Of a stretch of DNA of 38,074 nucleotides, positions 5,122 through 38,074 are shown in pieces. Source of the DNA: a virus. The notes beneath the pieces are model-generated. The model did not search any database. It was given only the letters and a program-made list of their open reading frames with translations, and was not told the DNA's origin. The stretch lies in the IMG/VR virus record IMGVR_UViG_3300000327_000004, positions 1 through 38,074 of that record; one strand, 5' to 3'. How positions within the stretch are numbered: position 1 is the stretch's first letter; the number at the start of each line of letters is the position of its first letter. A program made the translations under genes and the position numbers.

Positions 5122-7329
5122 GTGCCGGGCGAGGTGGTCGAGGTCATCCTCCGGCTCCGCGACCAGGCGTCGCAGCCGTTGGAGGGCGCGGCCGAGTCGG
5201 CGCGGAAGCTCGCCGACGAGTCGACGCGCGCTGCGGGTGCGCTGAACGATGCCGACGACGCGGCAAAGAACGCGGCGGTCGCGCTGTCCGACCTCGACGA
5301 CTCGGCGAAGGCGGCCGAACGTTCGGTGCGCGCCGAGGCGGTGGCGGCCGTGCAGGCTGTCGATGCGCTGGAGGCGCACGCCGAGGCGACGGCCATCGCG
5401 GCGCGGAGCACGGGCCGCATGTCGCAGGCGCTCGCGGCGGTCGCGTTGCAGGTCCCGGACGTGATCACGCAGCTCTCGATGGGGGCGGACCCCCTGCGTG
5501 TCTTCGCGATCCAGGGCTTGCAGGTCGTCCAGCAGACGAACGCGATGGCGTCGGCGTTCTCGGCGCTCGCGTCGAAGGGCCCCATCCTTGCCGTCGCGCT
5601 CGCCGCCGTCGCGACGGTGGCCGTGTCGGTGGCGAACGCCGTCTCGAAGATGCGCGAGGAGGTGGGCAGCCTCGACGACATCATCGACGACACGCGCGAG
5701 AACATCGCGCGGTGGGATCAAACGTTCGCCGACGCCGGGCAGGGGATCGCGAACACCGACACGCTGCTCGACGAGCTACGCACGCGCGTTCTGCTCGCGC
5801 GGGGCGAGATCGACGAGTTCGACGCGATGATGAAGCGGAGCGCCGACGCCATCGAGGCGTTCTACGGCCCCGCGATCCAGCGCATGGCCGCGCACGTCGA
5901 GGAGCTGCGAGCGGCCCGGGCGCGTCTCAACAGGTTCATCCGGGCGAACAAGGCCTCCACGGAGGAGATGACCCGGGCCCACCTGGAGCTCGACCGCGTC
6001 AACCGCGAACTCGCCGACGCCGAGAAGCGACTCGCCGACCTCCAGTCGGAACGGAACGCGAAGATCAACGAGGCCATTGGCCTCGTCGAGCAGCTCCGGG
6101 ACGCGGAGCAGCAGGGGGCCGACGCGGGCGCAACGTTCGCCGCGTCCGTGGAGGCGCAGGCCGAGGCGCTCGGAACGTTCGAGGAGCGCCTCCAGCAGGC
6201 GGCGGCAGAGTGGGAGGCGTGGGCCGACGAGGTGGTCGGCGCGACGACGGGTGCCGCCACGGGCGCAGAGGAGCTGGCGCGGATCCTCCAGTCGGTCGGT
6301 GCGGCCCCGACCCTGTCGGCGCTCGACGAAGTGCGACTCCGCATGATCGACGTCGACGAGCTGCTACGGCAGGGGAAGATCACCGCCGAGGAGCACGCCG
6401 AGGCCATCGACCTGCTCCGGGCGCGCTACGAGGCCCTCCAGGCGGCCGCTGAGGGCGCCGGGGAGGCGACCCGGGGGGTTACCCCTCCGGCGGGCGCAAC
6501 GGCGGCTGTACGGGCCGCTGGGGCCCTGTTTGGGGGTGCTCCGCTGGGGGCCGCGCAGACCCTCCTCGGCGTGGCGGGGCCCTACGGGGCGCTCGCCGGG
6601 GCGGCGCTCGGGGGGCTCGCGGCGCTCGGGGAGACGGGCGCGCAGGGCGTCATCGACGCCATCGAGGCCCTGGGCGACCAGCTCCAGGCGGGGCTCGAGG
6701 CGCTGCCCGACCTGCTCGAAGCACTGGCCGAGCGGCTCCCCGACCTCGTGCCCGCCCTCGTGGGCGCCCTCGTCGATGCAGCGCCGGACATCCTCGTCGC
6801 TGTCGTCGAGGCGGTTGTCGCGCTGTCGCGCGAGTTGACGATGTTGCCGCTCACGTTGGCTAAGGCGTTGTGGCAGGCGTTGCGCGACTGGTGGAAGGAA
6901 ATCGGTGGCTTCGGCGGGCTCGTCAAGGCGTTGCTGGAGGCGCTCGCCCGACTCGCCAAGAACATCGGCGAGTCGGTGGGCAACGCCGTCTCGACGGTCG
7001 TGGACATCCTTATTCCGGGCGGCGAACGCGGCCTGTTCTCCAAGGAGGGCCTGTTCGGGCTGAAGAACGTGCCCATCCTCCAGGAGGGTCGCACGTTCGT
7101 CGAGCGCACCGGGCTCGCGCTGATTCACCAGGGCGAGCAGATCGTGCCGAGAGGGGGGCGCGCAACGCAGGCGGCGGAGGTGCGGTCCCCGTTCGCGCCG
7201 GCGGGCGGGCCCACGGTGGTCATCCAGACCGCGGCCGTCTCGCCGGATATCGTGCCGGCGCTTGTGCGCGAGATGGAGCGGGTGTTCGGGCAGTTCGGCA
7301 GGGCGCAGTCGCCCCTGTTCTCGGTGTAG
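5122..7329 (+). CDS. Tail tape measure protein
   Basis: At 735 residues this is among the longest genes of the structural region. It starts with GTG. The amino third is Ala/Asp/Glu-rich helix with heptad-like spacing, followed by a hydrophobic part (GPILAVALAAVATVAVSVANAV, about residues 154-175). Next come long coiled-coil segments (residues 240-330), a Gly/Ala-rich hydrophobic region near 480-520, and a carboxy domain ending in GLALIHQGEQIVPRGG, common in tape measure proteins. The protein sets tail length; by the usual 0.15 nm per residue the tail would be near 110 nm, an inference only. Confidence 0.85.
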   Translation: MPGEVVEVILRLRDQASQPLEGAAESARKLADESTRAAGALNDADDAAKNAAVALSDLDDSAKAAERSVRAEAVAAVQAVDALEAHAEATAIAARSTGRMSQALAAVALQVPDVITQLSMGADPLRVFAIQGLQVVQQTNAMASAFSALASKGPILAVALAAVATVAVSVANAVSKMREEVGSLDDIIDDTRENIARWDQTFADAGQGIANTDTLLDELRTRVLLARGEIDEFDAMMKRSADAIEAFYGPAIQRMAAHVEELRAARARLNRFIRANKASTEEMTRAHLELDRVNRELADAEKRLADLQSERNAKINEAIGLVEQLRDAEQQGADAGATFAASVEAQAEALGTFEERLQQAAAEWEAWADEVVGATTGAATGAEELARILQSVGAAPTLSALDEVRLRMIDVDELLRQGKITAEEHAEAIDLLRARYEALQAAAEGAGEATRGVTPPAGATAAVRAAGALFGGAPLGAAQTLLGVAGPYGALAGAALGGLAALGETGAQGVIDAIEALGDQLQAGLEALPDLLEALAERLPDLVPALVGALVDAAPDILVAVVEAVVALSRELTMLPLTLAKALWQALRDWWKEIGGFGGLVKALLEALARLAKNIGESVGNAVSTVVDILIPGGERGLFSKEGLFGLKNVPILQEGRTFVERTGLALIHQGEQIVPRGGRATQAAEVRSPFAPAGGPTVVIQTAAVSPDIVPALVREMERVFGQFGRAQSPLFSV

Positions 7330-13762: not shown

Positions 13763-14551
13763 ATGCCGATTCGCCCCCTCCGTGTCGTCGCCGAGCTTGC
13801 CGGCCCTCTCGCCGACTCGGGCGACCCGCCGCACCTCGACGGGCTGTTGGCGCTCGCGTGGGTGCGCCGACACGCGAAGATGCTGGACCTGCCGCGCCCC
13901 TCGCGCTTCGACGGCGGGGCGAGCCTCGCGCAGGAACCGCACCTTCCGCTCGCCCGCGTCGAGTGGGACGGGCGGTACGTCTGGCTCGCGTCCGCCGCGC
14001 TCTACGACGAGCCGAAGACGCCGGCCGCAATCTGGTCCGTCAAGCGCCGAGACGTAGAGGACTTCGAGCGGCTGGCGCGAAAGGTGAACGTCGTCTCCGG
14101 CCCGGCGAAAAACGCCCGCGTGCGCGCGGATGGGCTCGTTACGCCCCGCGCCGTCTGGTACGCCTGGGGCGACCGCCGAGAGGTGGTTCGCGCGCTCCGG
14201 CTGATCTGGGGCCGCGAGTCGGCGCCGCACGGGCAGGTCGGCTCGCGGCGGCGCACGGGCTCGGGGCAGATCCTCCGGTGGCGAGTCGAGGAGGTGCCCG
14301 AACTGGCCCCGGAATCGCCGCTGGTTCGCTCCGGCGTCGCGGCCCGCAATCTACCCCTGCCGTGGGCTGCGGGGGCGGCTGGGGCCAAATACGGCGGCGT
14401 GCGGCCGCCCTACTGGCACCCGGCCACGATGGAGCAGGTCGTCCCGCCGGGGATACCCGTCGAGCTCCTACCGGAAGTGGTCGCCGCCTGCACCTGGGCG
14501 GCCGGAGGCGGACGTGGCCCTCGTCCAGTGCCCTCGGCTGACGGACGCTGA
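13763..14551 (+). CDS. csf3: Csf3, Cas5-like subunit of type IV effector
   Basis: A 262-residue protein starting two bases after csf2. The opening PLRVVAELAGPLADSG...HLDGLLALAW matches the Csf3/Cas5 pattern (a first RAMP strand followed by LDGLLA). The later elements IWSVKRRD, VTPRAVWYAWGDRREVVRAL and GSRRRTGSGQILRW, a Gly-rich loop, also fit. Cas5-type proteins cap the 5' end of the guide RNA. The last 38 bases overlap the cysH start. The carboxy end past residue 245 is low-complexity and probably not conserved. Confidence 0.8.
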   Translation: MPIRPLRVVAELAGPLADSGDPPHLDGLLALAWVRRHAKMLDLPRPSRFDGGASLAQEPHLPLARVEWDGRYVWLASAALYDEPKTPAAIWSVKRRDVEDFERLARKVNVVSGPAKNARVRADGLVTPRAVWYAWGDRREVVRALRLIWGRESAPHGQVGSRRRTGSGQILRWRVEEVPELAPESPLVRSGVAARNLPLPWAAGAAGAKYGGVRPPYWHPATMEQVVPPGIPVELLPEVVAACTWAAGGGRGPRPVPSADGR

Positions 14552-15293
14552 CCTCGAGGTCTGGCGCAGAAACGAGGCCGCCGACCGGCTCTACGCCGTG
14601 CGGTTTCGGCGCCGTCTCGACCGTCTCGCCGCGCAGGCACGCAGCGTCATCCGCGACGCGCTGAATCGCGGCCCCGCCTACGTGTCGATCTCGTGGGGCA
14701 AGGACAGCCTCGTCGTGCTCGACCTCGCCCTCTCCGTGGACCCGAACGTTCTGGTGGTCCACATCGTCCAGGGCGCGGCCGCGAACCCTGACGACATGCT
14801 CGTGCGCGACGAGGCTCTCGCCAGGTGGCCGCTCAACTACATCGAGGTCGACTGCGACCGCGACGCCGAGTACACGTGGAGCACCTGGGTCGAGCAGACT
14901 CGGGCGGCGTCAGAGTTCGGCCGCCGAATCGTCGGCATTCGAGCCGAGGAGTCGCGCCAGCGGCAGTTGTCCGCCGCAGTGCACGGCTACGCGACCGAGC
15001 ACTCGATCCGCCCGATCCTGCGCTGGCGAGTTGCCGACGTGTGGGCGTGGATCGCCCGGCGCGACCTGCCGGCCCACCCCGTCTATGCAATGACCGGCGG
15101 CGGCGTGTGGCCGCGCGAATGGCTGCGCGTCGGCGGGCTCCTCGACTTCGACCAGGTGCACTCGATGGGCACCGGCCTCGGGCGCGCAGAGTGGGAGCGC
15201 CGTTACTACGGTGGCGTAGCCGTCGAATCGTGGCTACGCTGGAGCAGAAAGGAGGCGAACATGGACCGAGGCAAGGGCAAGGGCGGCGACTAG
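14514..15293 (+). CDS. cysH: CysH-like PP-loop protein (PAPS reductase family) of the type IV-B cassette
   Basis: A 259-residue protein from a GTG, preceded by GGAGGCGGAC and overlapping csf3. It has the PP-loop SISWGKDS (residues 58-65) of the PAPS reductase / adenylate-forming ATPase group, with Trp in place of the first Gly of SGGKDS. GIRAEESRQR and the RPILRWRVADVWAWI segment are typical of CysH/DndC-like enzymes, which bind ATP or PAPS and act in sulfur or phosphorothioate chemistry. CysH-like genes accompany type IV-B CRISPR loci, which this neighbourhood matches. It lacks the Cys pair needed for iron-sulfur-type reductases, so its reaction is open. A stand-alone DNA-modifying role is the alternative. 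Confidence 0.8.
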   Translation: MALVQCPRLTDADLEVWRRNEAADRLYAVRFRRRLDRLAAQARSVIRDALNRGPAYVSISWGKDSLVVLDLALSVDPNVLVVHIVQGAAANPDDMLVRDEALARWPLNYIEVDCDRDAEYTWSTWVEQTRAASEFGRRIVGIRAEESRQRQLSAAVHGYATEHSIRPILRWRVADVWAWIARRDLPAHPVYAMTGGGVWPREWLRVGGLLDFDQVHSMGTGLGRAEWERRYYGGVAVESWLRWSRKEANMDRGKGKGGD

Positions 15294-22161: not shown

Positions 22162-22397
22162 TTGCTCCCCCTCGCATGCGCCCGGCAGACCGGGATGTGG
22201 GTGATGATCGTGATGGCGGCGGCGTCCTCGACTTCCAGGACGAGGAGGTAGTCTGCGCTGCCGTGGCAGCCGTCCACGGCGCACAGCCCGGCGAGCTGGA
22301 AGGACAACCCGCGCAGCCGGTGCGGGCCGCCGCCCAGCTCGTCGAGGCGGCGCAGGTGGTCGCGCACGAGCGCGGCGATGTGGTCGGTGTGCTCCAT
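22158..22397 (-). CDS. Small protein, unknown
   Basis: Seventy-nine residues; two consecutive ATGs (22,400 and 22,397) overlap the stop of the annealing-protein gene, and the second is better spaced from GGAGGG. It contains HIAALVRDHLRRLDELGGGP and a C...C pair (LCAVDGCHGS and VCRAH) that may bind zinc. The compact strand-rich middle (YLLVLEVEDAAAITIITHIP) suggests a folded domain. Function unknown. Confidence 0.55.
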   Translation of the reverse strand: MEHTDHIAALVRDHLRRLDELGGGPHRLRGLSFQLAGLCAVDGCHGSADYLLVLEVEDAAAITIITHIPVCRAHARGSK

Positions 22398-23239
22398 CAT
22401 CCCTCCACGTCCACGTCGTCGGCCTGCACGCCCACCAGCTCGCGCTCGGCCTCGACGGCCCAGTCCGCCGCGCCGTCCGCGTCCACGGGCTCCGGCTCCG
22501 GCAGGGCGCGGGGGTCCACGGGCGCGGGCAGCGCGTCGGCGGCTCCGTCCGAGTCCGCAACCACGTCGAAGTCCGCCCGAAGCGCTACTCCGGTGACGCG
22601 GCCGGCCTCGTCGTCGAGCACCACCGAGCCGCGCGACATCAGCGCGTGGATCGCGCTCTTGCGGGCCATCTCGAGGGGCCACTTGTTCCACACCCCTCCG
22701 TTTCCGGCTGCTCGCCGCTGCTCGACCTGCGGGCGCGTCAGCACCTCGATCACCGGCGGGTAGCCGGGACGCGTCGCAACCGCGTAGGCGGCCCGGAGCG
22801 TCGCCCAGCTGCGGTCTGCGTCAAGGGCTGGCGAGTGCCGCAGGTCCGGGCGCACGCCGAGGGCGACCTCGAAGGCGTCGCCGTCGTGGACCGTGCCCGA
22901 GGTGACCTGCCAGCCCGACCGCGCGGCGAGGACCGCGAGGCCGACGTGGCTCGGCATCCACTGGAGCTCCAGCTGCCCCTTGACCCGCCGCGGGACCAGG
23001 TAGACCTGCGGGGGCGTCGTGCCGGGGTAGAGGCGCGTCATCGCGCTCAGGGCCACCGCCCTCGCCACGCTCATCGGCGAGCAGGCGGCGATCTCCGGCG
23101 CCTGCGCGCGGGCGCTCGACAGCGCGAGGCCGATGCGCCCGGCGGCCTCCTGGCTGCCGCCCAGCCGCCGCACGAAGTCGGCGGCGAACCGCTCGATCAT
23201 GGCCTTCCAGCGTGCCTCTGCGTTCGCGGTCGTCGTCAT
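22397..23239 (-). CDS. recT: RecT-family single-strand annealing protein
   Basis: A 280-residue protein with the RecT core: PMSVARAVALSAMTRLYPGT (residues 56-75), VYLVPRR, LQWMPSHVGLAVLAARSGW, a YAVATRPG.PPVIEVLTRPQ segment and WPLEMARKSAIHALM. RecT-type proteins bind single-stranded DNA left by a partner exonuclease and pair it with a complementary strand. The partner is the upstream exonuclease gene, which overlaps by four bases. The acidic carboxy tail (about residue 240 on) is typical of single-strand DNA-binding proteins. Confidence 0.85.
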   Translation of the reverse strand: MTTTANAEARWKAMIERFAADFVRRLGGSQEAAGRIGLALSSARAQAPEIAACSPMSVARAVALSAMTRLYPGTTPPQVYLVPRRVKGQLELQWMPSHVGLAVLAARSGWQVTSGTVHDGDAFEVALGVRPDLRHSPALDADRSWATLRAAYAVATRPGYPPVIEVLTRPQVEQRRAAGNGGVWNKWPLEMARKSAIHALMSRGSVVLDDEAGRVTGVALRADFDVVADSDGAADALPAPVDPRALPEPEPVDADGAADWAVEAERELVGVQADDVDVEG

Positions 23240-24228
23240 CGTGTCCTCCTCATCGACAGGTACACCGTGCCGGGGCTCTCCTTGACCAGCCCCCTCGCCT
23301 CCAGCTGCTCGGCCAGGTCCGGCGCCGCCTTCGCCAGCTCGCGCCACGAGGCGACCCGCCGGTAGCCCTTGCGCTCGGCTAGCTTCGCCAGCCCGCGCAG
23401 CTCCCGCACGCCGTCGCGCAGCATCCGCGCCTGGAGCTGGCCCTTCAGCTGGTCGCGCTCGACCGTGAGGGCCTTGACCTGCTCGTCCAGCTCGGCGATG
23501 CGCTCGGCCACGGCGCGGTCGTCCTCGGTCGGCAGCGCCACGCCCTCCGGGAGCCCGCCGGCGAGCTGGACCGCGACGGAGAGGGGGTCGCGCTCCGTCG
23601 GCGGCGGCGGCACCGGGCCGCCCTCGCCCCACAGGTAGGCGTCGCACCATGCCCGGACCTCGGCGCGGATGCGCTCTGCGCGCTCGCGGACGGCGTCGTC
23701 CCACCAGTGAATGCGGTAGACGCGGGCCTCGCCGCTCACCACGTCGAAGGCGATCACGTCCGCGCCGGCAATGCTCCAGTCCGTGCCGGCGTCGGCCACG
23801 TCGAGCTGCCAGAGCACCTGCGGCTGGTAGTGCTCGGGCAGGCCCTCCAGGCCCTCGCCGTGGTCGCCCCAGCCGCGGAAGTACCGGCAGGTCTTGACCT
23901 CGACGAGCCGCACCCGCCCCTCCGGGTGCCGCTCCATGCGATACCACCCGTCCGGGCGGGCGTGCTGCCACCCTCGGGCGTAGATGGGCTCGACGTTCAG
24001 CCCGCCCGTGCGGACGATCTTCATGCCCAGGCGGCTCCGCTCGTACCAGTCGAGCAACGGCCCCTCCAGGGCCGACCCGACCCACGCCGTCCCGAGGGCG
24101 TCGGGGTCGTGCTCGTAGCGGGGCATGAGCCCCGCAAGCTTCGCCCACGTCTCCTGCGGCCCCTGCCACGGGTTGAGGCCCAGGATGCTGGGCACCTCCG
24201 AAGCGCCGATGTCCTGCGCGACCGGCAT
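23236..24228 (-). CDS. YqaJ / lambda-exonuclease family nuclease
   Basis: A 330-residue protein. The PD-(D/E)XK features are visible: GASEVPSILGLNPWQ (residues 8-22), Glu55 in GSALEGPLLDWYE, Asp93 in RPDG and Glu110-Val-Lys112 in LVEVKT, then a Gln/Leu-rich QPQVLWQLDV segment. Such enzymes digest one strand of duplex ends. Residues 240-265 form a coiled coil (AELDEQVKALTVERDQLKGQ), and a small carboxy domain follows. Adjacent recT and ruvC-like genes make a complete phage recombination set. Promoter copy 2 lies upstream. Confidence 0.85.
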   Translation of the reverse strand: MPVAQDIGASEVPSILGLNPWQGPQETWAKLAGLMPRYEHDPDALGTAWVGSALEGPLLDWYERSRLGMKIVRTGGLNVEPIYARGWQHARPDGWYRMERHPEGRVRLVEVKTCRYFRGWGDHGEGLEGLPEHYQPQVLWQLDVADAGTDWSIAGADVIAFDVVSGEARVYRIHWWDDAVRERAERIRAEVRAWCDAYLWGEGGPVPPPPTERDPLSVAVQLAGGLPEGVALPTEDDRAVAERIAELDEQVKALTVERDQLKGQLQARMLRDGVRELRGLAKLAERKGYRRVASWRELAKAAPDLAEQLEARGLVKESPGTVYLSMRRTR

Positions 24229-24245
24229 GTTTCCTCCTGCGTCCA

Positions 24246-24274
24246 GGTAGTAAACCGTACGCGGCGCGGTACAA
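24246..24274 (-). promoter_or_regulatory. Leftward promoter of the repeated family (copy 2)
   Basis: Reading leftward: TTGTAC, 16 bases, TACTAC, then CAGGAGGAAAC before the ATG at 24,228. It shares CGCGTACGGTTTACTACC with copy 1 at 19,937-19,954. It heads the exonuclease-recT-ruvC-regulator block. Confidence 0.65.
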
Positions 24275-24276
24275 CG

Positions 24277-24909
24277 TCACGCCGCCAGCATCTTCCGTAG
24301 GCGGCGGATCGCCTGCCCGTACACCTGCTGCTGCCGCTGGTAAGTGCACCCCCAGCGCGCGGCCTGCTCGCGCCATGGCACGCCCGCCAGCCGGGCGCGC
24401 ACCGTCTCGCGCTCTCGCTCGGGTAGCCGCTCGATGGCGACGTCCACGCGCTGCCAGTCGAGGGCGCGGTCCAGCACCGGCGCGGGGTCCTCGCCCCCGT
24501 GCGTCTCGCCCCACGTGCGCCCGTCGGGCGCGGGGTCGTCGAAGCCCACGCGGGCAGACGGCTGCGCGGCCCGGTAGGCCGCCACGTCCTTCGGGTTGAC
24601 GCCGGCGCGGCGGGCAGCGCGCTCCACGTCGCCACGCGCCGCGTCCAGCGCCTCCGCGATGCGGCGCGCGTAGGCCACGGCGCGACCCGTCAGCGGCGAC
24701 GCCTCGCGCAGCGCATGGAGCCCGGCGATGCGGGCCCAGCCGCGCAGCCGCGCGGGGGCGTCCACGGGGACCGGCTTGCCCTCGGCCCGCCAGGCGAGCA
24801 GGCGGGTGGTGATTTCCTGGGCCCCGTCCTCCGCCGTCATCGGGTGGGGCCACCACAGCTTGCGCGCCGCAACGCGCGCAGCGTTTAGGATCGCAGTCGT
24901 CTCGTCCAT
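24277..24909 (-). CDS. Sigma-70-family-like sigma factor
   Basis: A 210-residue protein starting MDETTAIL behind AAGGAGGGAACG (an upstream ATG at 24,924 lies within the ribosome site and is less likely). The amino part (TAEDGAQEITTRLLAW...LRGWARIAGLHALRE) resembles sigma region 2. The carboxy part (VAIERLPERERETVRARLAG, then WREQAARWGCTYQRQQQVYG and IRRLRKML) is a region-4 type helix-turn-helix. It may direct host polymerase to the repeated leftward promoters or to late genes. A region-4-only DNA-binding regulator is the alternative. Confidence 0.65.
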   Translation of the reverse strand: MDETTAILNAARVAARKLWWPHPMTAEDGAQEITTRLLAWRAEGKPVPVDAPARLRGWARIAGLHALREASPLTGRAVAYARRIAEALDAARGDVERAARRAGVNPKDVAAYRAAQPSARVGFDDPAPDGRTWGETHGGEDPAPVLDRALDWQRVDVAIERLPERERETVRARLAGVPWREQAARWGCTYQRQQQVYGQAIRRLRKMLAA

Positions 24910-24934: not shown

Positions 24935-25759
24935 CTACGACCCAGGCGGGCCCACGTAGGCGCAGCTCCGCAGGTGCCCGCACCGAAGGTTGCGTCCGCG
25001 CACGGGCATCCAGGCGTCGCGCCGGCCGCACTGCGGGCAACGCACCTTCCGCACGACCGTCCCGTCCGGGCTCAGGACGCCCCCCAGAGCCGCCGCAAGC
25101 TCGTGGGGGTCGTCAGGTAGCCGGACGCGGCTGCGAGAGAACCTAGGCCCGCTCACGGTCGCGCGTTGGCGCTGTTCGCGCGCCGCCTCGGCGCGCTCCC
25201 GCTCCCGGCGCACCTGCTCCGCTAGCTGGCGCAGGTCCAACAGCCGACCGGGCCGGGCACACCACCACGCCGGCCGGCCGTCCTCGGCGCGGCAGGGCAG
25301 GGCGTGAATCCTGGTCGGGTCCGAGCACGCCGGGTCCGCGCCGTCCGCCCAGCGCAGCACCACCGCCGCGTAGACGTCGCGCCAGGCGTCCGCCTCGACG
25401 GGCGCCGCCAGCGGCAGCACCACGCGGGCGCGGTGCGCCCCCGGGCGCGACGAGTACGTCTCGTGCGCCCACAGCCTGTAGCCCGCCCACAGCTCCAGCA
25501 CCTCGGCGGGATGCTTGGCCTCCAGGTGGTCGAAGTCGAGCACGAGCGCCGTCACCGCCTGGACGTCGCCCAGCCGCCGGCGCCCGCCCTCGGCCAGCAC
25601 GTGCGGCGCCCAGCACGGGATGTCCTTCTTGTCCGCAGGGCGCGCCGCCCCGCACCGCCGCCGCGCCAGCGCCTCCACGGCGTCGAGGCTTGGAGCCGCC
25701 CGCCACGGCGTCCGCGACGCGCGGATGCTCCGGTAGAGAACGGCAGGAGCGGAGCGCAT
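24935..25759 (-). CDS. AEP-type primase-like protein with zinc ribbon
   Basis: A 274-residue protein co-translated with the helicase (ATG overlaps its TGA). The pattern ALVLDFDHLE, HETYSSRPGAHRARVVLPLA and ACSDPTRIHALPCR corresponds to the metal-binding and nucleotide-binding segments of archaeo-eukaryotic-type primases in phages and plasmids. The carboxy end holds a zinc ribbon (VRCPQCGRRDAW, then LRCGHLRSC). Together with the helicase and the DUF927 ATPase it would start DNA synthesis; no DNA polymerase gene is visible, so host polymerase is presumably recruited. Confidence 0.7.
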   Translation of the reverse strand: MRSAPAVLYRSIRASRTPWRAAPSLDAVEALARRRCGAARPADKKDIPCWAPHVLAEGGRRRLGDVQAVTALVLDFDHLEAKHPAEVLELWAGYRLWAHETYSSRPGAHRARVVLPLAAPVEADAWRDVYAAVVLRWADGADPACSDPTRIHALPCRAEDGRPAWWCARPGRLLDLRQLAEQVRRERERAEAAREQRQRATVSGPRFSRSRVRLPDDPHELAAALGGVLSPDGTVVRKVRCPQCGRRDAWMPVRGRNLRCGHLRSCAYVGPPGS

Positions 25760-27309
25760 CACTCCTCCCCGTAGAGCCGGTCCGCGAGCAGCCGGAGCAC
25801 CGCCGGCGGCTCCGGCCACCCGTGCGACCGCTTCCAGGTGCGCGCCCGCACGCCGCGAGCCCGCGAGCCCTTCAGCGCGAACAGCACGGTGAGCAGGTCG
25901 CTCGCGGCGCCCTTCGACGGCGGGTCCGCCGCGATCGCCCGCAGCAGCCGCGCCAGCCCCTTCGGGGCCCGCCGGTCGAGAACGCCGACGAGCCAGCGAG
26001 CCCCCAGCATCTCTTGCTGCCGCGCGCTCGGCGGGTCCTGCCGCCACTTGCCCGGCTTGATGTTCGGCTCGTCGAGCACGCCGGCCTCGACCCCGTGCGC
26101 GATGAGCGCCCGGAGCCAGCGCTCGATGGGGCCGACCACCGCCGGGAACCGCTCGGCGTAGAGGTCGGGCAGCTCCTCGGCCAGGTCGTCGGCGCTGTCG
26201 ATGGCCGGCGCCTCCTCGCCCTCCTGCTCGGCGCGGCGGCGCAAGGCCTCCAGCAGCTCCCGCAGCTCCTCGTCCAGGCCGTCGGACCAGCCCAAGGCCG
26301 CGTCCGCGAGCCTCACGAAGCCGGCCAGCTGGTCCAGGGGGTCCAGGACGATGGCCTCGTCCTTGCCGGGGAAGGTGCGGAGCACGCGCCCGACCTCCTG
26401 GACAAGCCCGACCCGGCTGCGGGGGCGCCGGAGGCACAGCCAGCGCAGCCAGGGCAGGTCGACGCCCTCGACCAGGAGGGCGACGTGCACGAGCGCGTCC
26501 AGCTCGCCCCGCCGCAGCCGTTCGAGGAGGGCGGCGCGCTCGGACCGCGACTGCCGGCTGTGAATCGCCGCGGCCCGCCAACCCGCGCGGTTGAGCACGC
26601 CCGCGAACGCCTCGGCGTCGTCGATGGAGAACGCCGACACCACGCCGGGGCCCGCGCCCCGGACGTGCCTGTCCATCAGCTCCAGGCAGGCGCCGTCGAG
26701 GTTCATGTCGGGGTGCTGGCGGGCGTCCTCCTCGCCCCAGACGATGACGCGCGGCCGAACGAGCACCCCGTCGCGCATGGCGTCCGTCGGCGAGTACCTG
26801 TAGACCTCGCACTCCCAGAGGCGCAGGCGCTCGTCCGGGTCGCTCCGGTACGGCGTCGCGGAGCACCCCAGCGCCCGCGCCGGGTTCAAGTCCTCGTAGG
26901 CCCGCAGGACCGTCTCGGACTCGGTGCGGTGCACCTCGTCCGCGATCCAGAGGCCGACCGCGATGCCTCGCGCCCGCAGCGTCCAGGCGATGTCGGGGAG
27001 CGACGGGACGCAGGAGACGGTCACGGACCGCCCCAGCCGCTTCCCGTGCGTGTACCAGTAGCCGACCGCGTCGCCAAGGCGGCGCGCGAAGGTCGCCTTC
27101 ATCTGGTCGACCAGCGCCACCGTGGGCACGGAGACGACCACGTGCTCCCAGCCGCGCTCGATGGCGGCGGCGGCCACTTCCGACAAGAGGATCGACTTTC
27201 CCGCGCCCATCACCGCCGACACGATCCCGCGCCGGCCGGCTTCGAGGGCCTCCAGCGCACGCGGCAGGGCCTCGGCCTGCCACGCGCGGAGCCGCCACGG
27301 GCGCTCCAT
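25759..27309 (-). CDS. SF2 DNA/RNA helicase
   Basis: A 516-residue protein with canonical motifs: Q-like RLRAWQAEALPRAL, Walker A SAVMGAGKSIL (Lys38), Walker B ADEVH (residues 123-127), motif III CSATPYR (149-155), and the second RecA domain with HSRQSRSERAALLERLRRGE, LVEGVDLP and VGLVQEVGRVLR. It resembles phage UvsW/RecG-like or type-restriction-style SF2 helicases used in replication restart or origin unwinding. The carboxy 150 residues are a helical extra domain. Start has GAAGGAGGGAAGG. Confidence 0.85.
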   Translation of the reverse strand: MERPWRLRAWQAEALPRALEALEAGRRGIVSAVMGAGKSILLSEVAAAAIERGWEHVVVSVPTVALVDQMKATFARRLGDAVGYWYTHGKRLGRSVTVSCVPSLPDIAWTLRARGIAVGLWIADEVHRTESETVLRAYEDLNPARALGCSATPYRSDPDERLRLWECEVYRYSPTDAMRDGVLVRPRVIVWGEEDARQHPDMNLDGACLELMDRHVRGAGPGVVSAFSIDDAEAFAGVLNRAGWRAAAIHSRQSRSERAALLERLRRGELDALVHVALLVEGVDLPWLRWLCLRRPRSRVGLVQEVGRVLRTFPGKDEAIVLDPLDQLAGFVRLADAALGWSDGLDEELRELLEALRRRAEQEGEEAPAIDSADDLAEELPDLYAERFPAVVGPIERWLRALIAHGVEAGVLDEPNIKPGKWRQDPPSARQQEMLGARWLVGVLDRRAPKGLARLLRAIAADPPSKGAASDLLTVLFALKGSRARGVRARTWKRSHGWPEPPAVLRLLADRLYGEE

Positions 27310-27364: not shown

Positions 27365-29401
27365 CTACCCCTCGGCGTCCAGCGCCGCCCACGCCTCCGG
27401 CAGCAGCCGCACGACGCGCTGGACGCGGCCACCCACTCGCGCCAGCACCGTCGTCCGGTTGCCCTTCGTCGCCAGCCACCCCCGCGCTGCCCACTCCCGG
27501 CGGATCGCCCTCGCGCGCCCCCGACGCCCAGGCGTGCCCCAGCGCTGCTCCAGCAGGGCGTCCAGCTGCTCGGGCAGGAAGTCGATGGCGCCGTCGCCGC
27601 TCTGCCAGCCCAGCCAGCCGTCGCGCGGCAGGTCCCGCGTCGCCTGCATCTCCGCCGACGAGCCCGCGATCCGGTCCGGGTGCGCCGCCAGGTAGTCGCG
27701 CAGCGCCCCGAGCGCGTGCAGCGCCACGTCCGCCTCCGTCTGCCGGCCGACCATGATGCCGCCCAGCAGCTCCGCGACCGCCATCCGACCCCAGTCCTCG
27801 CCGGTCGCCTCCTCCAGCAGGTGGAGGCCGAGGACGACCAGCGCCGACGCCTCCGCCGTCCGCGCCTCGATGCCCGACAGGTGCTCGTGCGCCGCCGCGA
27901 CCAGCTCCGCGTAGAGCGCACGCACCTCGTCGTCGCCGGGCCACGCGCGCAGCACCGCGCGCCCGAGGTGCCCGTGGTGCTCGTCCGTCACCGCCTGCAC
28001 CCGCCGCGCCGCTGCCGCGTCCGGCACCACGCCCTCGGTCGCGTCCAGGTCGAGCACCCGCGCCCGCGCGCCCGAGCGCGACGAGCCAGCGCCCAGCGGC
28101 TCCTCGCCGGTCGAGAGCAGCCAGCACCACCACCGGCCCTCGTGCGCCAGCGAGCCGTCCCGGCGTGCGCGGCCACGGCTCACCCCGGAGACGTGCGCGT
28201 AGACGTACTCCTCGGCCCTCCCCGCGACGCTCAGCTCGTCAAGCACGAGCGGCAGGTCCGCCAGCATCTCCGCCCGCGCCTGCACGCCCCGCCGCGTCGC
28301 GTCCCAGTCCCGGATGATGCCGCGCGGGTCGCCCCACACAGACGCCGCCGCCCGCAGCGCCGTCGTCTTCCCCGTCGAGCTGGTCCCCCAAACGTGGACC
28401 ACGGCGGGCTCGCGACGGACCACGCGCCCGAGGATGCTCGCCACCGACGCGCCCACGAGCGCCGCCAGGATGGGCGCCTGCCGCGCCACCGCCGCCAGCT
28501 CGCGCGCCTGCACCGCGCCGTCGCCGGCCGGACGCAGCGCCTCCGCCAGCGCCTGCGAGCCCCCAGGCAGCGCCGGACGCACGGGCGCGGCCTCCTCCTC
28601 GCCAGGCACCACCGCGTCCGCCAGCACGAGCGCCCGCTGCCCGCCAGGTAGGTCGTGCCAGCCCAGGCGGCGCGCCACCACCTCCCGCCGGAGCTTCCCC
28701 GCCGCCATCTCCTGCGCCTGCGTGCATTCCCGTAGCCACCGCGCAGCCGCCTTCCGCTCGGAGCTGTCCACCCGCACGCCGCACCGGGCCAGCGCCTTCA
28801 CCACCTGCGCGCTGTCGTACGCCTGCTCGGGGCGGACCCATCCCGCGCGGACCACCCCGTCCGTGCCCCGCCAGCGCAGCCCCAGCTCCTCGTCCTCGGG
28901 GCCCGCCTCGAGCCCGCGACGGACCGCCACCACCGCCAACGGCACGTCCAGCGCCCGGACCCACCGCGCCGTCACCTCGCCGTCCAGCCCGCGCTCCTCG
29001 ATGAGCCGGTAGACGCCCCTCGCCGTCAACCGCCAGCCGTCGGGCTCGTGCACGCCCTCCCACTCGCCCTCGCCGGGCAGCGCCAGGTCCGGCTGCGGCA
29101 GCTGCTGGGGGTCGCCAGCGGCAGCCTGCGCCTCGTCGCTGCCGGCCTCGTGCGCCGCCACCTGCGCGACCGCCCTCGCCAGCTCGCGGAGCCCCAGCGC
29201 CCGGAGGCGCTGCGCGAGCCCGATGGCGTGCGGGGCCAGCTCGGCCAGCTCGTCCGGGCCCGCTGCCTGGAGCGCGCCTAGCACCGTCGCGGCCCACGCC
29301 GAACGCGCCAGCCCCTCGGGCTTCCTGCCGGCGGCGATGTCGTCGAGCCCAGCCTGAAGCCGCGCCAGAACCGTCGTCGCGCCTTCCTTCGCTCCGTCCA
29401 C
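27365..29401 (-). CDS. DUF927-type ATPase (replication helicase-like)
   Basis: A 678-residue protein. The centre has VVHVWGTSSTGKTTALRAAA (Walker A, Lys345) followed by SVWGDP, DWDATRRG, LPLVLDELS and WWCWLLSTGEEPL, the pattern of DUF927 proteins, RecA/DnaB-like ATPases of phages and mobile elements that act in replication. The amino 300 residues are variable and helix-rich. The GTG at 29,401 with GTGGAGGGAGG is chosen as start; an in-frame ATG at 29,479 lies in the leader hairpin and has no ribosome site. First gene of the leftward set. Confidence 0.75.
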   Translation of the reverse strand: MDGAKEGATTVLARLQAGLDDIAAGRKPEGLARSAWAATVLGALQAAGPDELAELAPHAIGLAQRLRALGLRELARAVAQVAAHEAGSDEAQAAAGDPQQLPQPDLALPGEGEWEGVHEPDGWRLTARGVYRLIEERGLDGEVTARWVRALDVPLAVVAVRRGLEAGPEDEELGLRWRGTDGVVRAGWVRPEQAYDSAQVVKALARCGVRVDSSERKAAARWLRECTQAQEMAAGKLRREVVARRLGWHDLPGGQRALVLADAVVPGEEEAAPVRPALPGGSQALAEALRPAGDGAVQARELAAVARQAPILAALVGASVASILGRVVRREPAVVHVWGTSSTGKTTALRAAASVWGDPRGIIRDWDATRRGVQARAEMLADLPLVLDELSVAGRAEEYVYAHVSGVSRGRARRDGSLAHEGRWWCWLLSTGEEPLGAGSSRSGARARVLDLDATEGVVPDAAAARRVQAVTDEHHGHLGRAVLRAWPGDDEVRALYAELVAAAHEHLSGIEARTAEASALVVLGLHLLEEATGEDWGRMAVAELLGGIMVGRQTEADVALHALGALRDYLAAHPDRIAGSSAEMQATRDLPRDGWLGWQSGDGAIDFLPEQLDALLEQRWGTPGRRGRARAIRREWAARGWLATKGNRTTVLARVGGRVQRVVRLLPEAWAALDAEG

Positions 29402-29462
29402 GTCGGCCTCCCTCCACGGGGTACGCCCCCTACCTGTACGCCACGCCGGCAGCCCATACAAC

Positions 29463-29491
29463 GACCCCCCGACCAGCAAGGCCGGGGGGTC
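29463..29491. terminator. Leader hairpin upstream of the DUF927 gene (attenuator or terminator)
   Basis: GACCCCCCGACC and GGCCGGGGGGTC pair as a 12-bp stem with one mismatch and a 5-base AGCAA loop. It lies in the leader of the leftward transcript, 60 bases ahead of the GTG; no T run follows on either strand. Confidence 0.55.
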
Positions 29492-29515
29492 AAGGGCGTC
29501 TGGAAGGAGGGAAGG

Positions 29516-29545
29516 ATGTCGACGCCGCCATCACCCTCCTACTAA
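29516..29545 (+). other. Nine-codon open frame with perfect ribosome site
   Basis: On the plus strand GGAAGGAGGGAAGG precedes ATG, and the frame MSTPPSPSY ends in TAA. The initiation region is the same as that of the helicase gene on the other strand. It may be a leader peptide or the stub of a deleted gene. Confidence 0.4.
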
Positions 29546-29567
29546 GCCCCGCGCGCACCGCGCACAA
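29539..29567 (-). promoter_or_regulatory. Leftward promoter of the repeated family (copy 4)
   Basis: Reading leftward: TTGTGC, 17 bases, TAGTAG. The -35 box equals copy 1 and the spacer has the same CG-rich character. It would transcribe through the leader hairpin into the DUF927 gene. Confidence 0.5.
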
Positions 29568-29616
29568 CCGCAACCGACCCGGTGCGTACAGGGCGCGGTC
29601 GCGGCGCGGGCGCAGC

Positions 29617-29879
29617 GTAACCGATCCGGGGCGCGTAACCACGCTGCGCTAGAGACGGTTTCGCGCGATAGTTGGCGTTGTCCGTACGTTATGGCGAAGC
29701 GTAACCGTGTAACCGCACGCCGCGCAGTAAGATTTCATTACCCCCCCGGTGTGTGAGATTTTCCGATCTGCTTCGATCACGCCCCCGTGTAGTAGTAGTA
29801 GTAGAGTAGCGGTTACACCGGTTACACCGGTTACAGGTAGGTAGGTAGGTAGGTAGGAGCGGCGTTTTCGGACGTAACC
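29617..29879. repeat. GTAACC/GGTTAC iteron-like array
   Basis: GTAACC occurs at 29,617, 29,635, 29,701, 29,709 and 29,874; its complement GGTTAC occurs at 29,811, 29,820 and 29,829, where three 9-base units (GGTTACACC twice, then GGTTACAGG) are in tandem. Eight sites in 263 bases of otherwise GC-rich DNA suggest a multi-site binding region for an initiator or regulator. Confidence 0.7.
29790..29855. repeat. Simple repeats (TAG)5 and (GGTA)5 flanking the tandem iterons
   Basis: Five TAG units at 29,790-29,804 and five GGTA units at 29,836-29,855 stand on either side of the three tandem GGTTAC units. Such short tandem repeats are rare in this genome. Confidence 0.8.
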
Positions 29880-29980
29880 GCTCTGGACGTGTCAAGGGGT
29901 AGCGCGCGGTTGCACCGCTCCGGGCGGTATACAGGGGGCGCGGGCTCCCCCTTGTGCAGCGCCGTGCGACGGCGTACAAC

Positions 29981-30040
29981 ATGCACGTGTTCGCCGTCGT
30001 GGAAGTCTTCGGCACCCTGCAAGGCGAGGGGTCGCTCGCT
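29981..30040 (+). pseudogene. queE-like relic (7-carboxy-7-deazaguanine synthase amino end)
   Basis: From ATG at 29,981 the frame reads VVEVFGTLQGEGSLAGTPA, the hallmark opening of QueE, a radical-SAM enzyme in the 7-deazaguanine pathway. Then the similarity stops: the next residues are Pro/Gly-rich and the CxxxCxxC cluster never appears. No ribosome site precedes it, so this looks like the stub of a deleted gene. Confidence 0.55.
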
Positions 30041-30101
30041 GGCACCCCCGCCCCCACGACGCCGGGGGGCGGGGCTTCCTGCATGGAGGGGCCGCGTGGG
30101 C

Positions 30102-30107
30102 TACGAT
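30102..30107 (+). promoter_or_regulatory. Candidate -10 box before the ParB-methyltransferase gene
   Basis: TACGAT lies 15 bases ahead of the start codon, followed by GGGAGGCCGA. It equals the -10 of the endolysin promoter. No good -35 box is visible at the right distance, so this is weak. Confidence 0.3.
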
Positions 30108-30122
30108 TCGGCGGGAGGCCGA

Positions 30123-31304
30123 ATGCGCGACCACGACCACCCCGACGGGCCCGCCGCCGAGTGGGTTCCCGTCGACTCGCTGCGCCCCTGGGACCGAAAC
30201 CCGCGTGTCCACGGCGACACGGTGGACCTCGTCGCCGAGTCGATTCGCCGCTTCGGCTGGGGCGCTCCCATCCTCGCGCGCCGAGACGGCACCATCATCG
30301 CCGGGCACGCGCGCTACCAGGCCGCCCGCAAGCTCGGGCTCGACCGCGTGCCGGTGCGCCGACTCGACCTCGACGACGACGAGGCCGCCGCCCTCGCGCT
30401 CGCCGACAACAAGCTCGTCGAGCGTTCCGCCTGGGACGACGAGGGGCTCGCCGACATCCTGCGCGACCTGGACGAGCACGGCTTCGACGTCGAGTCGCTG
30501 GGGTGGAGCCCCGAGGAGCTGGAGGAGCTGCGCGCCCCCGCGCTCGACCCCGCGGGAGGCGACGAGGACGATGTGCCGGAGCCCGACGAGGGCGAGCCCG
30601 TGAGCCGCCCCGGCGAGCTGTACCAGCTCGGGCCGCACCGGCTCGTGTGCGGGGATGCGACGGAGCCCGCCGACTGGGACCGCGTGCTCGACGGCGAGAC
30701 GCCGACCCTCGTGCTCACCGACCCGCCCTACGGCGTTGAGATCGACTACGACGGATTCGATGACACCGACGAGGCGCTACGCGACCTCGCCCGCAAGTGG
30801 TTCCCCATCGCCCGCAAGCGCGCCAAGCGGATCGTGTTCACTCCTGGTATCGGGAACCTCCACCACTACCCGCCGCCGACGTGGATGCTCGGCTGGTTCT
30901 ACCGTGGGACCGCGATCACACGGTGGGGGTTCAACATGTGGCAACCCGTGCTCGTCTACGGCCCCGACCCGTACCTCGAAGCCCAGCTCGGTGGCAGGCC
31001 GGACATCATCGACTCGCGGGGAAGCAAGGACCCGATACAAGAGCCGAAGCCGGATCATCTGGCGCCCAAGCCGCTCGCGTTCTGGATCGAACTCCTGGAG
31101 CGCGTCTCCGTTGACCGCCGAGACGTGGTCGTCGACCCGTTCGGCGGCTCTGGCACGACGCTCATCGCGTGCGCGCAGACTGGGCGCGTCGCCCATCTCA
31201 TCGAGCAGAGCCCCCGCTACTGCGACGTGATCCGCCGGCGCTGGGCCCGGTGGGCCGTCGAGCACGGGGCGGACGTGGGGGACGGGATCGTCGACGGCGG
31301 CTAA
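30123..31304 (+). CDS. ParB-like / N6- or N4-type DNA methyltransferase fusion
   Basis: A 393-residue protein. Residues 12-110 are a ParB/Srx-type domain (VDSLRPWDRNPRVHGD, then GWGAPILARRDGTIIAGHAR and ALADNKLVERSAWD). The second half is a SAM-dependent methyltransferase with catalytic DPPY (200-203) placed before the SAM motif DPFGGSGTT (338-346), the beta-class order shared with CcrM and HinfI methylases. It would methylate adenine or cytosine in phage DNA, perhaps against host restriction. It opens the rightward genes just before terminase. No cognate nuclease is near. Confidence 0.85.
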   Translation: MRDHDHPDGPAAEWVPVDSLRPWDRNPRVHGDTVDLVAESIRRFGWGAPILARRDGTIIAGHARYQAARKLGLDRVPVRRLDLDDDEAAALALADNKLVERSAWDDEGLADILRDLDEHGFDVESLGWSPEELEELRAPALDPAGGDEDDVPEPDEGEPVSRPGELYQLGPHRLVCGDATEPADWDRVLDGETPTLVLTDPPYGVEIDYDGFDDTDEALRDLARKWFPIARKRAKRIVFTPGIGNLHHYPPPTWMLGWFYRGTAITRWGFNMWQPVLVYGPDPYLEAQLGGRPDIIDSRGSKDPIQEPKPDHLAPKPLAFWIELLERVSVDRRDVVVDPFGGSGTTLIACAQTGRVAHLIEQSPRYCDVIRRRWARWAVEHGADVGDGIVDGG

Positions 31305-31307: not shown

Positions 31308-31327
31308 GCCTGCGTAGTGGAGGCGTC

Positions 31328-31849
31328 TTGCCGACTCGCCGGCGTCGCTGCACCAAGGAGGAGCTCGAAGCCCGACTCGCCGAAGTCGAGGCGGTGCTGC
31401 GTTCCGGCGCGTGGTCGATGCAGGCCGCGCGCCAGCTGGCGAAGCGGTACGGCGTCACCTCCAAGCACGTCGAGGAGTACCGGCGCAAGGTGCTCGCGCG
31501 GTGGCGCGCCGACGTCACGGACCAGGACCGCGAGGCGCACCGGGCGCGGCTCCTCGAAGAAATCCGGGAGACTCGGCGGCGTGCGCTGGCGAACGGGGAC
31601 GCCGGCTCCCTCGCCGTCACGTCGCGCCTGCTCGACCTGGAGGCGCGGCTCCTCGGGCTGCACGAGCCCGTGCGCGTCGACGTCGCCGTCGCCGTCCAGC
31701 GCGACCCGCGCGAGCTGGCCCGCGAGGTGCTCGCGGCCGTGCCGGAGGCGTGCAAGGTTCTCGGCCTCCCCCCGCCGGAGCTCCCGGATCCCGACCGCGA
31801 CGTCATCGACGTCGAGGCCGAGGAGGTGCCGAGTGGGAGCGGCGAGTAG
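31328..31849 (+). CDS. Terminase small subunit
   Basis: A 173-residue protein. The start is a TTG placed 4 bases after GTGGAGGC; no ATG or GTG in this frame lies near. Residues 25-55 form a helix-turn-helix (SMQAARQLAKRYGVTSKHVE), then a helical oligomerisation part (RLLEEIRETRRRALANGD, SLAVTSRLLDLEARLLGLHE), as in small terminases that recognise phage DNA ends. It overlaps the large subunit gene by 17 bases. Confidence 0.75.
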   Translation: MPTRRRRCTKEELEARLAEVEAVLRSGAWSMQAARQLAKRYGVTSKHVEEYRRKVLARWRADVTDQDREAHRARLLEEIRETRRRALANGDAGSLAVTSRLLDLEARLLGLHEPVRVDVAVAVQRDPRELAREVLAAVPEACKVLGLPPPELPDPDRDVIDVEAEEVPSGSGE

Positions 31850-33332
31850 CCTCGCGGCGTTCGCCGTTGCGGCGGCGCAGCTCCGCGAGCTCGCCGAGTC
31901 GGCGCCGCTGGCCGTCGAGCGCCTCTGGCACCGCGACCCGCCACGCACGTCGCAGCGCGAGGCGGCCCGCATCGCTCTGCGCCGAGACGGCTTCGCAACG
32001 CTCGTGGTCGGGGGCAACCGGGCCGGCAAGACGCGTCTCGGCGCCGCCATCGCCGTCGCCTGCGCCCTCGGGCGGAACCACCCGATGGTGCGCGCCTGGG
32101 CGCGCTTGAACGGCCTCGACGTCTCGACGATTCCGCGCGGCCCGGGGCGAGTCTGCGTCTCGTCGTTGTCCTGGTCCGAGTCGATCCGCGTCACCCGCCC
32201 CGCCGTGTCGCGGTTGCTGCCGCCCGGCTGCCGTTGGATCGGCGGAGGCCCCGACACGCGCGGCGAGGTGCGAGTCGTCACCCCGAACGGCGGCGCCATC
32301 CTCTTCAAGTGTGAGGAGCAGTACAAGCAGGACAGGCAGGCGTTCGAGGGCGACACGTGGGACCTGCTCTGGATTGACGAGGAGCAGGCTGAGGGGCTGT
32401 ACCTCGCCGGCCTCATGCGCGTCGCGGACCGGCGCGGGCGTGTGCTGCTGACGATGACCCCGCTGAAGGGGCGAACGTGGGTGTGGAAGCGATTCATCGC
32501 CGAGCAGGAGGACGGCACCGCGTACTACCAGGTCCACGGCTTCGACAACCCCTTCGTGCCCCGCGACTTCCTCGAACGGCTGCTACGCAGCTACTCGGCG
32601 GCGGAACGTGCGGCCCGGGAACGCGGCGAGTTCACGGCGCTTGAAGGCCGCGTCTACCCCGCCTTCGAGCGCCGACTCCACGTCGTCGACCCCCGCCCGA
32701 TTCCCGCCGACTGGCCGCGCTTCATGGGCATCGACTTCGGCGCGAGGAACCCGTTCGCCGCCCTCTCGGCGGCAATCGACAACCTCGGGCGGCTGCACGT
32801 CTACCGCGAGCACTACCAGGCGCAGCGGCCGATCTCGTGGCACGCCCTCGCGATGTTGCGCGCCGAGTCGTGCCCGGCGTGCTGGCGAGACGAGGGGTTC
32901 GGGAGCGCCGAATGGTGGGACCGCTACGGCTGGGTCCGCGACGACTCGGGGCGCTGGGCGCCGTGTCGGCGCTGCCGCGGCACCGGGCGCGCGGAGCCGG
33001 AACCCGAGGTGCGCTGGGCCGACTCGGCGGGCAGGCAGGAACGCATCGAGCTCGCGGAATACGGGCTTCCGACCGCCCCGAGCATCAAGGACGTTCGCGC
33101 CGCCATCGGCCTCGTCTCTGCGCTGCTCGACCCGGAGCAACCGGGCGGACCGCACCTGCTGATTCACTCGACGTGTCGGCACCTCGTCGAGGAGCTGGAG
33201 AACTACGTCTGGGCGGACTCGCGGAGCGTGAACGACCCGCCCGAGAAGCCCAGGAAGCGCGACGACCACGCCGTCGACGCGCTGCACTACCTCGTGCTCG
33301 GGGCGCGCCGGTACGGCTACCTCGCCGAGTAG
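31833..33332 (+). CDS. terL: Terminase large subunit with a zinc-finger insertion
   Basis: A 499-residue packaging motor. The ATPase shows GGNRAGKT (residues 60-67, Walker A) and LLWIDEEQ (178-185, Walker B with catalytic Glu). The nuclease part begins FMGIDFGARN (Asp301) and ends RDDHAVDALHYL (Asp482 or neighbours), the RNase H-like metal site. Between these an extra module with C347xxC350 and C378xxC381 would bind zinc; this is not usual in terminases. A GTG behind GAGGAGG is the start. It drives DNA into the prohead through the portal encoded next. Confidence 0.9.
   Translation: MGAASSLAAFAVAAAQLRELAESAPLAVERLWHRDPPRTSQREAARIALRRDGFATLVVGGNRAGKTRLGAAIAVACALGRNHPMVRAWARLNGLDVSTIPRGPGRVCVSSLSWSESIRVTRPAVSRLLPPGCRWIGGGPDTRGEVRVVTPNGGAILFKCEEQYKQDRQAFEGDTWDLLWIDEEQAEGLYLAGLMRVADRRGRVLLTMTPLKGRTWVWKRFIAEQEDGTAYYQVHGFDNPFVPRDFLERLLRSYSAAERAARERGEFTALEGRVYPAFERRLHVVDPRPIPADWPRFMGIDFGARNPFAALSAAIDNLGRLHVYREHYQAQRPISWHALAMLRAESCPACWRDEGFGSAEWWDRYGWVRDDSGRWAPCRRCRGTGRAEPEPEVRWADSAGRQERIELAEYGLPTAPSIKDVRAAIGLVSALLDPEQPGGPHLLIHSTCRHLVEELENYVWADSRSVNDPPEKPRKRDDHAVDALHYLVLGARRYGYLAE

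Positions 33333-36704: not shown

Positions 36705-38074
<1,370 letters not shown>

Follow-up and report, generated by a model that had tools for sequence, protein, structure and literature searches.

In SaPI origins, an AT-rich stretch is flanked by two iteron sets in inverted orientation, and the alpha protein of phage P4 is a helicase-initiator with type I iteron sets at its origin. In the accessible text of PMC7581432, the C-terminal domain of SaPI Rep acts on iterons beside its own gene, and the usual place of the origin is immediately 3' (downstream) of the helicase gene. The same text describes Cch as a DUF927 protein related to SaPIbov1 Rep, and the C-terminal domain of Cch2 as binding repeats next to its gene. 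In TcpK of pCW3, according to the available part of PMC6137059, a beta-wing in the major groove binds nine-nucleotide tandem boxes (GGAACTTTA). The iteron-beside-helicase principle is known in the searchable literature for SaPI and SCC elements; a general survey of DUF927 origins, or a recognition code for them, was not found there, and DUF927 helicases are described without iterons in the accessible portions of PMC10061031 and PMC7689252. The RepA_N origin in the available part of PMC7145576 was set aside as being of a different kind. Papers retrieved with GGTTACA and terminase (PMC3483164 and PMC7504290, accessible parts) contained ribosome-site and primer strings and were irrelevant.

The GTAACC array and its gene setting

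The window analysed here is an IMG/VR record in full (38,074 b). Its last 186 b (37889-38074) are cloning vector, 100% identical to plasmid records, with a polylinker and part of lacZ recognised by eye at the right end; the record is therefore a cloned insert of ~37.9 kb and its ends are not those of the phage. The vector part would mislead an analysis of ends or of GC content. The insert carries a tailed-phage gene set with tail genes, a lysis gene, a leftward replication module and a rightward module. The leftward module is made up of a DUF927 self-loading helicase of 678 aa (27365-29401, minus strand; assigned by sequence and model), which is the proposed initiator, followed by a primase/helicase-like open frame (24935-27298, minus strand; phrog_9765 at 2e-8 and phrog_256 at 5.5e-7) and, as the third gene, an open frame with a RecT single-strand annealing domain by profile match (22397-24856, minus strand). 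The rightward module begins with a ParB-N/DNA methyltransferase fusion (30123-31304, plus strand) and continues with a probable small terminase (31328-31849, plus strand), the large terminase (31833-33332, plus strand), portal, protease and capsid genes. The starts of the helicase (29401) and of the ParB-methyltransferase (30123) were placed by eye from Shine-Dalgarno-like sequence.

The small-terminase assignment follows from the position before the large terminase and a match to phrog_645; this family is labelled 'Rnase E' and may be a mislabelled terminase family. An apparent TerS-TerL fusion (frame at 31317, giving a 671-aa TerL) was rejected, its first part being an out-of-frame reading over gene 31328-31849. 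No close relatives of the large terminase were found in genome_contigs, and neither Rfam nor tRNA searches gave any match in the window. The phage also carries a phosphoadenosine phosphosulfate reductase-like gene (14514-15293).

The two modules are separated by an intergenic region of 721 b (29402-30122), for which no DNA similarity was found among phage records. A GC-rich hairpin (29463-29491) lies there just before a nine-codon open frame (29516-29545, plus strand; MSTPPSPSY) with a strong ribosome-binding sequence, possibly a leader peptide. The same region contains the GTAACC array (29617-29879), with eight exact copies in 263 b, seven of them reading GTAACCG. The sites start at 29617, 29635, 29701, 29709 and 29874 on the plus strand and at 29811, 29820 and 29829 on the minus strand. 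The count confirmed what the first-pass annotation had claimed, namely eight copies of GTAACC/GGTTAC with three at exact 9-b steps, and the intergenic position between divergent genes, the helicase on the minus strand and the ParB-methyltransferase on the plus strand, was likewise borne out. Equal frequency of the hexamer elsewhere in the genome had been named as the observation that would speak against this reading of the array. It does not hold: GTAACC occurs nine times in the 38,074 b, counting both strands, and the only copy outside the array is at 6477 (minus strand).

The number and clustering of the sites are beyond chance. Dinucleotide shuffles of the whole window gave a mean of 3.8 copies and a maximum of 8, and none of 100 reached nine. 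In 200 whole-window runs of a first-order Markov model there were never more than two copies per 263 b, and in 2000 simulations of the intergenic 721 b alone never more than four. Ranked by Poisson surprise against composition, the array is the top hexamer cluster of the window (log10 p of -17.4, vs -7.0 for the best unrelated one).

Five of the sites form two inverted arms. The left arm (29701-29715, plus strand) has two direct sites 8 b apart, and the right arm (29810-29835, minus strand) has three inverted sites in exact 9-b steps, a 2.9-fold repeat of CGGTTACAC. Between them lies a spacer (29716-29809), a putative unwinding element that overlaps the lowest-GC stretch of the insert: the lowest 94-b window starts at 29724 with 50% GC, compared with 58.5% for the lowest elsewhere and a mean of 73.6%. 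The array thus has the SaPI-type arrangement, in which two inverted iteron sets flank AT-rich DNA. The core geometry can be written as an 8-b step, a 102-b gap, a 9-b step and an extra forward site at +45, the last being the outlying site 45 b beyond the right arm (29874-29879, plus strand); two more forward sites lie outside the left arm (29617-29640, plus strand). Microsatellites of GTA and AGGT units directly flank the right arm (29789-29809 and 29835-29857).

The array starts 216 b from the 5' end of the helicase gene, and the 66 b between the 3' end of that gene and the next frame hold no array. This 5' placement is a departure from the known pattern, in which the origin is usually 3'. 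A GC-skew analysis had been proposed as a check; a turn near 30 kb was indeed present, but the genes change direction at the same place, and the turn carries no weight as evidence.

The DUF927 helicase and arrays beside its relatives

The window helicase matches PF06048 (DUF927) at 2.2e-41. By sequence it matched the SaPIbov1 initiator helicase (8tch_A) at 7.5e-18 and Cch (5dgk_A) at 9.4e-9, and fold alignment of its model (mean pLDDT 74.4) gave Z 30.3 with 8tch_B and Z 29.4 with 5dgk_A. The protein is a relative of the self-loading helicases SaPIbov1 Rep and SCCmec Cch. In the model, a C-terminal winged helix occupies approximately residues 598-666, mostly at pLDDT 82-91, and this region aligns with the corresponding domain of the relatives; R649 is in the wing and R662 in the strand that follows. 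The last 126 residues fold like TcpK (Z 12.4 over 100 residues for the free form and Z 12.3 over 98 for the DNA-bound form). At E 0.1 the window protein gave no match to HTH_56 (PF18662), the C-terminal model of Cch; the homologues in L131 and L141 did match it. A search of IMG/VR with the window helicase alone found no close relatives.

Loci were collected by the repeat and by the helicase. An 18-base array pattern yielded 90 IMG/VR stretches, many with dense intergenic GTAACC clusters. A period-9 GGTTAC pattern occurred in 54 contigs vs 20 for the reversed control, an enrichment that was not used alone as evidence since many of the 54 matches fall within open frames. Ten of 102 pattern-selected loci were dropped for long open frames, and 28 representatives of the 92 were compared for the genes beside the array. 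In the representatives of two large groups (46 and 23 loci) this neighbour was a Terminase_2 gene. Of the 37 records other than the window that were tested (37 of the 90 loci were submitted), 33 matched PF03592, 24 of them over the cut-off, and the ten largest terminase-group records gave no match to DUF927, DUF5906, VapE or D5_N. The two-arm geometry, sought in either orientation, was found in 0 of the 69 terminase-type loci. The GTAACC arrays of these groups may serve for packaging or as origins for a different initiator, and since the ten largest records show no such helicase, the hexamer alone does not name its reader. They lie directly upstream of Terminase_2 small-terminase genes (for example L042:3413-3522 and L073:2921-3007). 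No GTAACC array precedes the small-terminase gene in four named records whose small terminases are distant (L097-L100); in one of them, HTVC023P (L099), repeated CTAGGAAAA boxes were seen by eye before that gene, upstream of 3962. Six loci with relatives of the ParB-methyltransferase had no GTAACC cluster, with at most one site per 300 b.

Among unrelated loci, the array was found beside DUF927 genes in L131, L137, L141 and the window, beside VapE genes in L030 and L129, and beside D5/DUF5906 genes in L120, L123 and L138. The GTAACC repeat thus goes with several helicase families (VapE-side arrays at L030:3688-3991 and L129:4597-4747; D5/DUF5906-side arrays at L120:1177-1340, L123:4903-5230 and L138:969-1081). 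In a tally of 16 array groups, which leaves out the two terminase groups and four coding-like groups, nine including the window had a DUF927, VapE or D5/DUF5906 helicase within ~2 kb, two had one only elsewhere in the record, and for five none was found over the cut-off.

Since this set had been chosen by its repeat, we turned the question round and picked loci by the helicase protein. Three DUF927 helicases served as queries and the best 80 of 138 qualifying loci were used; four of the 80 had too little downstream DNA and one more had less than 400 b, leaving 75. An array was scored when one hexamer occurred at least six times within the 450 b that follow the stop codon of the helicase, with control windows from the same loci. 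Within these best 80 of 138, an array followed the helicase gene in 64 of 75 loci vs 1.8% of 2456 control windows and was absent by this threshold from 11 of 75, and GTAACC itself reached at least four copies in 18 of 76 loci vs 0 of 2479 controls. The DUF927 loci are mutually related, so that these counts are not independent trials, and two of them (L174 and L236) are the contigs of query proteins first found by their arrays; without the two, the counts were 62 of 73 and 16 of 74. On the upstream side, a hexamer with at least six copies occurred in 2 of 70 loci of the same best 80 of 138 and was not iteron-like.

Across the DUF927 loci the repeats vary on a GTNNCAC theme, and other loci have GTCCCAC, GTTCCAC, GTGCCAC, GTCGCAC, GTCACAC, GTAACAC or GTATCAC. 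Six of seven named phages or islands have an array after the helicase (THSA-485A, FP_Epona, phiRg507T2_3, PT1028, phiAH14b and Jekyll), that of THSA-485A using GTAACC itself; the seventh, vB_Pae_U10, has no array after its DUF927 helicase. In FP_Epona (L168), PT1028 (L170) and phiAH14b (L171), other repeats (GTTTCA and GGGAAC words) come right after the DUF927 gene. Of the 18 GTAACC-bearing loci among the best 80 of 138, 13 have the two-arm layout and five are without it in strict form, and nine, all within the 13, have an extra site at 43-44 b. We concluded that iteron arrays generally occur next to DUF927 helicases. The two-arm layout is common to the window and the helicase-linked loci and absent from the terminase-type ones, which ties the window to the helicase-linked class.

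Candidate recognition residues in the wing region

In an alignment of the C-terminal part of the helicases, we compared the residue at the wing tip (p1) and a residue of the following strand (p2) with the repeat beside each gene. Eighteen rows have E at p2, two of them (L191 and L192) identical; N at p1 goes with GTCCCAC in 12 rows, A with GTTCC(A/C)C in four and R with GTGCCAC in two. The helicases of L201 and L211, for example, have N or R at the wing tip and GTCCCAC or GTGCCAC repeats. A tree from which the C-terminal part was left out shows five changes at p1 and five at base 3 of the repeat, and all five pairs agree, five independent pairs being too few for p <0.05. The nearly identical helicases of L183 and L184 have H or S at p2, with GTCGCAC and GTCACAC. 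In a scan of 246 columns over 28 rows, the top-ranked column was p1 for base 3 of the repeat and p2 for base 4. The scanned rows were those in which the GTNNCAC repeat was counted at least five times, after removal of 3 near-identical rows of 31. As p1 and p2 had first been spotted by eye on largely the same rows, the scan is a check on the choice of columns and not independent data.

The window helicase has R649 at p1 and R662 at p2. Nine other helicases have R/R and a repeat that was counted five or more times; eight of them have GTTAC, and the exception (L207) has a different repeat. K/R helicases also pair with GTTAC or GTAAC, so that the R/R fit of the window is consistent with the rule and not unique to it. 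The co-variation suggests, on the sequence comparison, that two wing-region residues of the helicase read the repeat. We lean slightly towards a code in which the wing tip would set base 3 and the next-strand residue base 4 of GTNNCAC, the origin of an unannotated phage replicon could be predicted from its helicase alone, and R649/R662 with GTTAC in the window, where the array is 5' of the gene, would be one readout.

The array as a probable replication origin, and the alternatives

The explanation that we consider best is that the array is where the phage starts its replication, with the wing domain of the adjacent DUF927 helicase bound there, two groups of subunits on the arms and the spacer opened between them (probability about 0.86). 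The helicase from the adjacent leftward gene would bind GTNNCAC-type iterons, here GGTTACAC, contacting them with the wing of the C-terminal winged-helix domain. One group of subunits would form on each of the inverted arms, which are separated by 102 b, and the AT-rich DNA of the spacer would be opened; each helicase ring would then load and drive a fork outward. Binding of this array by this helicase, opening of the DNA in the spacer, the two-ring assembly and bidirectional replication are what we infer for the window. The first-pass annotation had proposed either initiator binding sites or the operator cluster of a regulator, with the DUF927 protein among the possible binders; the first of these proposals gains support from arrays of the same layout and repeat type beside DUF927 helicases elsewhere, and also from the two wing-region positions that appear to track the repeat sequence.

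A packaging-initiation site of the pac or cosB type, at which the small terminase would bind beside the rightward packaging genes, could account for a probable small-terminase gene 1.45 kb to the right of the array and for the adjacency of GTAACC arrays to Terminase_2 genes in 69 IMG/VR loci (46 + 23). However, the geometry shared by the window and the helicase-linked arrays is absent from all of these loci, the first rightward gene of the window is the ParB-methyltransferase and not a small terminase, and the window has no PF03592 match. On the geometry and the neighbour genes we set packaging aside for this locus as improbable. An even smaller chance attaches to a plain operator cluster, in which a repressor or activator, for instance an XRE-type regulator, would control divergent promoters and the sites would have no origin function: neither a regulator gene nor a sigma-70-like promoter was found in 29402-30122, and in other phages such arrays follow DUF927 genes at the 3' end, although inverted sites in an intergenic region between divergent genes are what an operator would look like.

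The origin might double as an operator through which the helicase represses its own promoter, a reading that would add to the origin function and not compete with it. With the array on the 5' side, the iterons separate the helicase gene from any promoter that lies upstream, so that the helicase may act on its own promoter, and autoregulation of initiators at iterons is well known; no promoter was located in 29402-30122, and we regard this double role as possible but rather doubtful.

With the origin reading, an anonymous repeat cluster becomes a concrete candidate origin with a named initiator and with bases and residues that can be tested. Of broader reach, and more surprising, is the likely recognition rule that emerges from the relatives. 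The comparison points to a large class of phage helicases, with no annotation beyond DUF927, whose origin would lie no more than a few hundred bases from the gene and whose repeat may be specified by two wing-region positions. If this is true, the origins of many uncultivated phages and islands could be found from sequence.

The described systems resemble the window in different respects. The alpha protein of P4 differs from the window helicase in architecture and its repeat is different. TcpK shares the fold of the C-terminal domain; unlike the window helicase, it is a stand-alone relaxosome protein that acts at an origin of transfer on boxes three nucleotides apart, with no helicase. SCCmec Cch belongs to the same ATPase family, whereas the Cch/Cch2 systems differ from the window in element type, repeat and placement, and the HTH_56 domain of Cch is unmatched by the window protein. 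SaPIbov1 Rep is a related DUF927 helicase with short iterons by its gene, and PT1028 has nine copies of GGGAAC in the 450 b after the helicase. In SaPIbov1, however, the repeat is GTTCCC and the array lies 3' of the gene, whereas the window has a GTTAC-type repeat 5' of the gene in a tailed-phage genome of 73.6% GC. The Thermoanaerobacterium phage THSA-485A has, like the window, a GTAACC array in two inverted arms beside a DUF927 gene, with 10 copies arranged as a 9-b step, a 106-b gap and a 7-b step and with an extra site at 52; it differs in that its array is directly 3' of the helicase gene and its helicase is annotated with a CHC2-type zinc finger.
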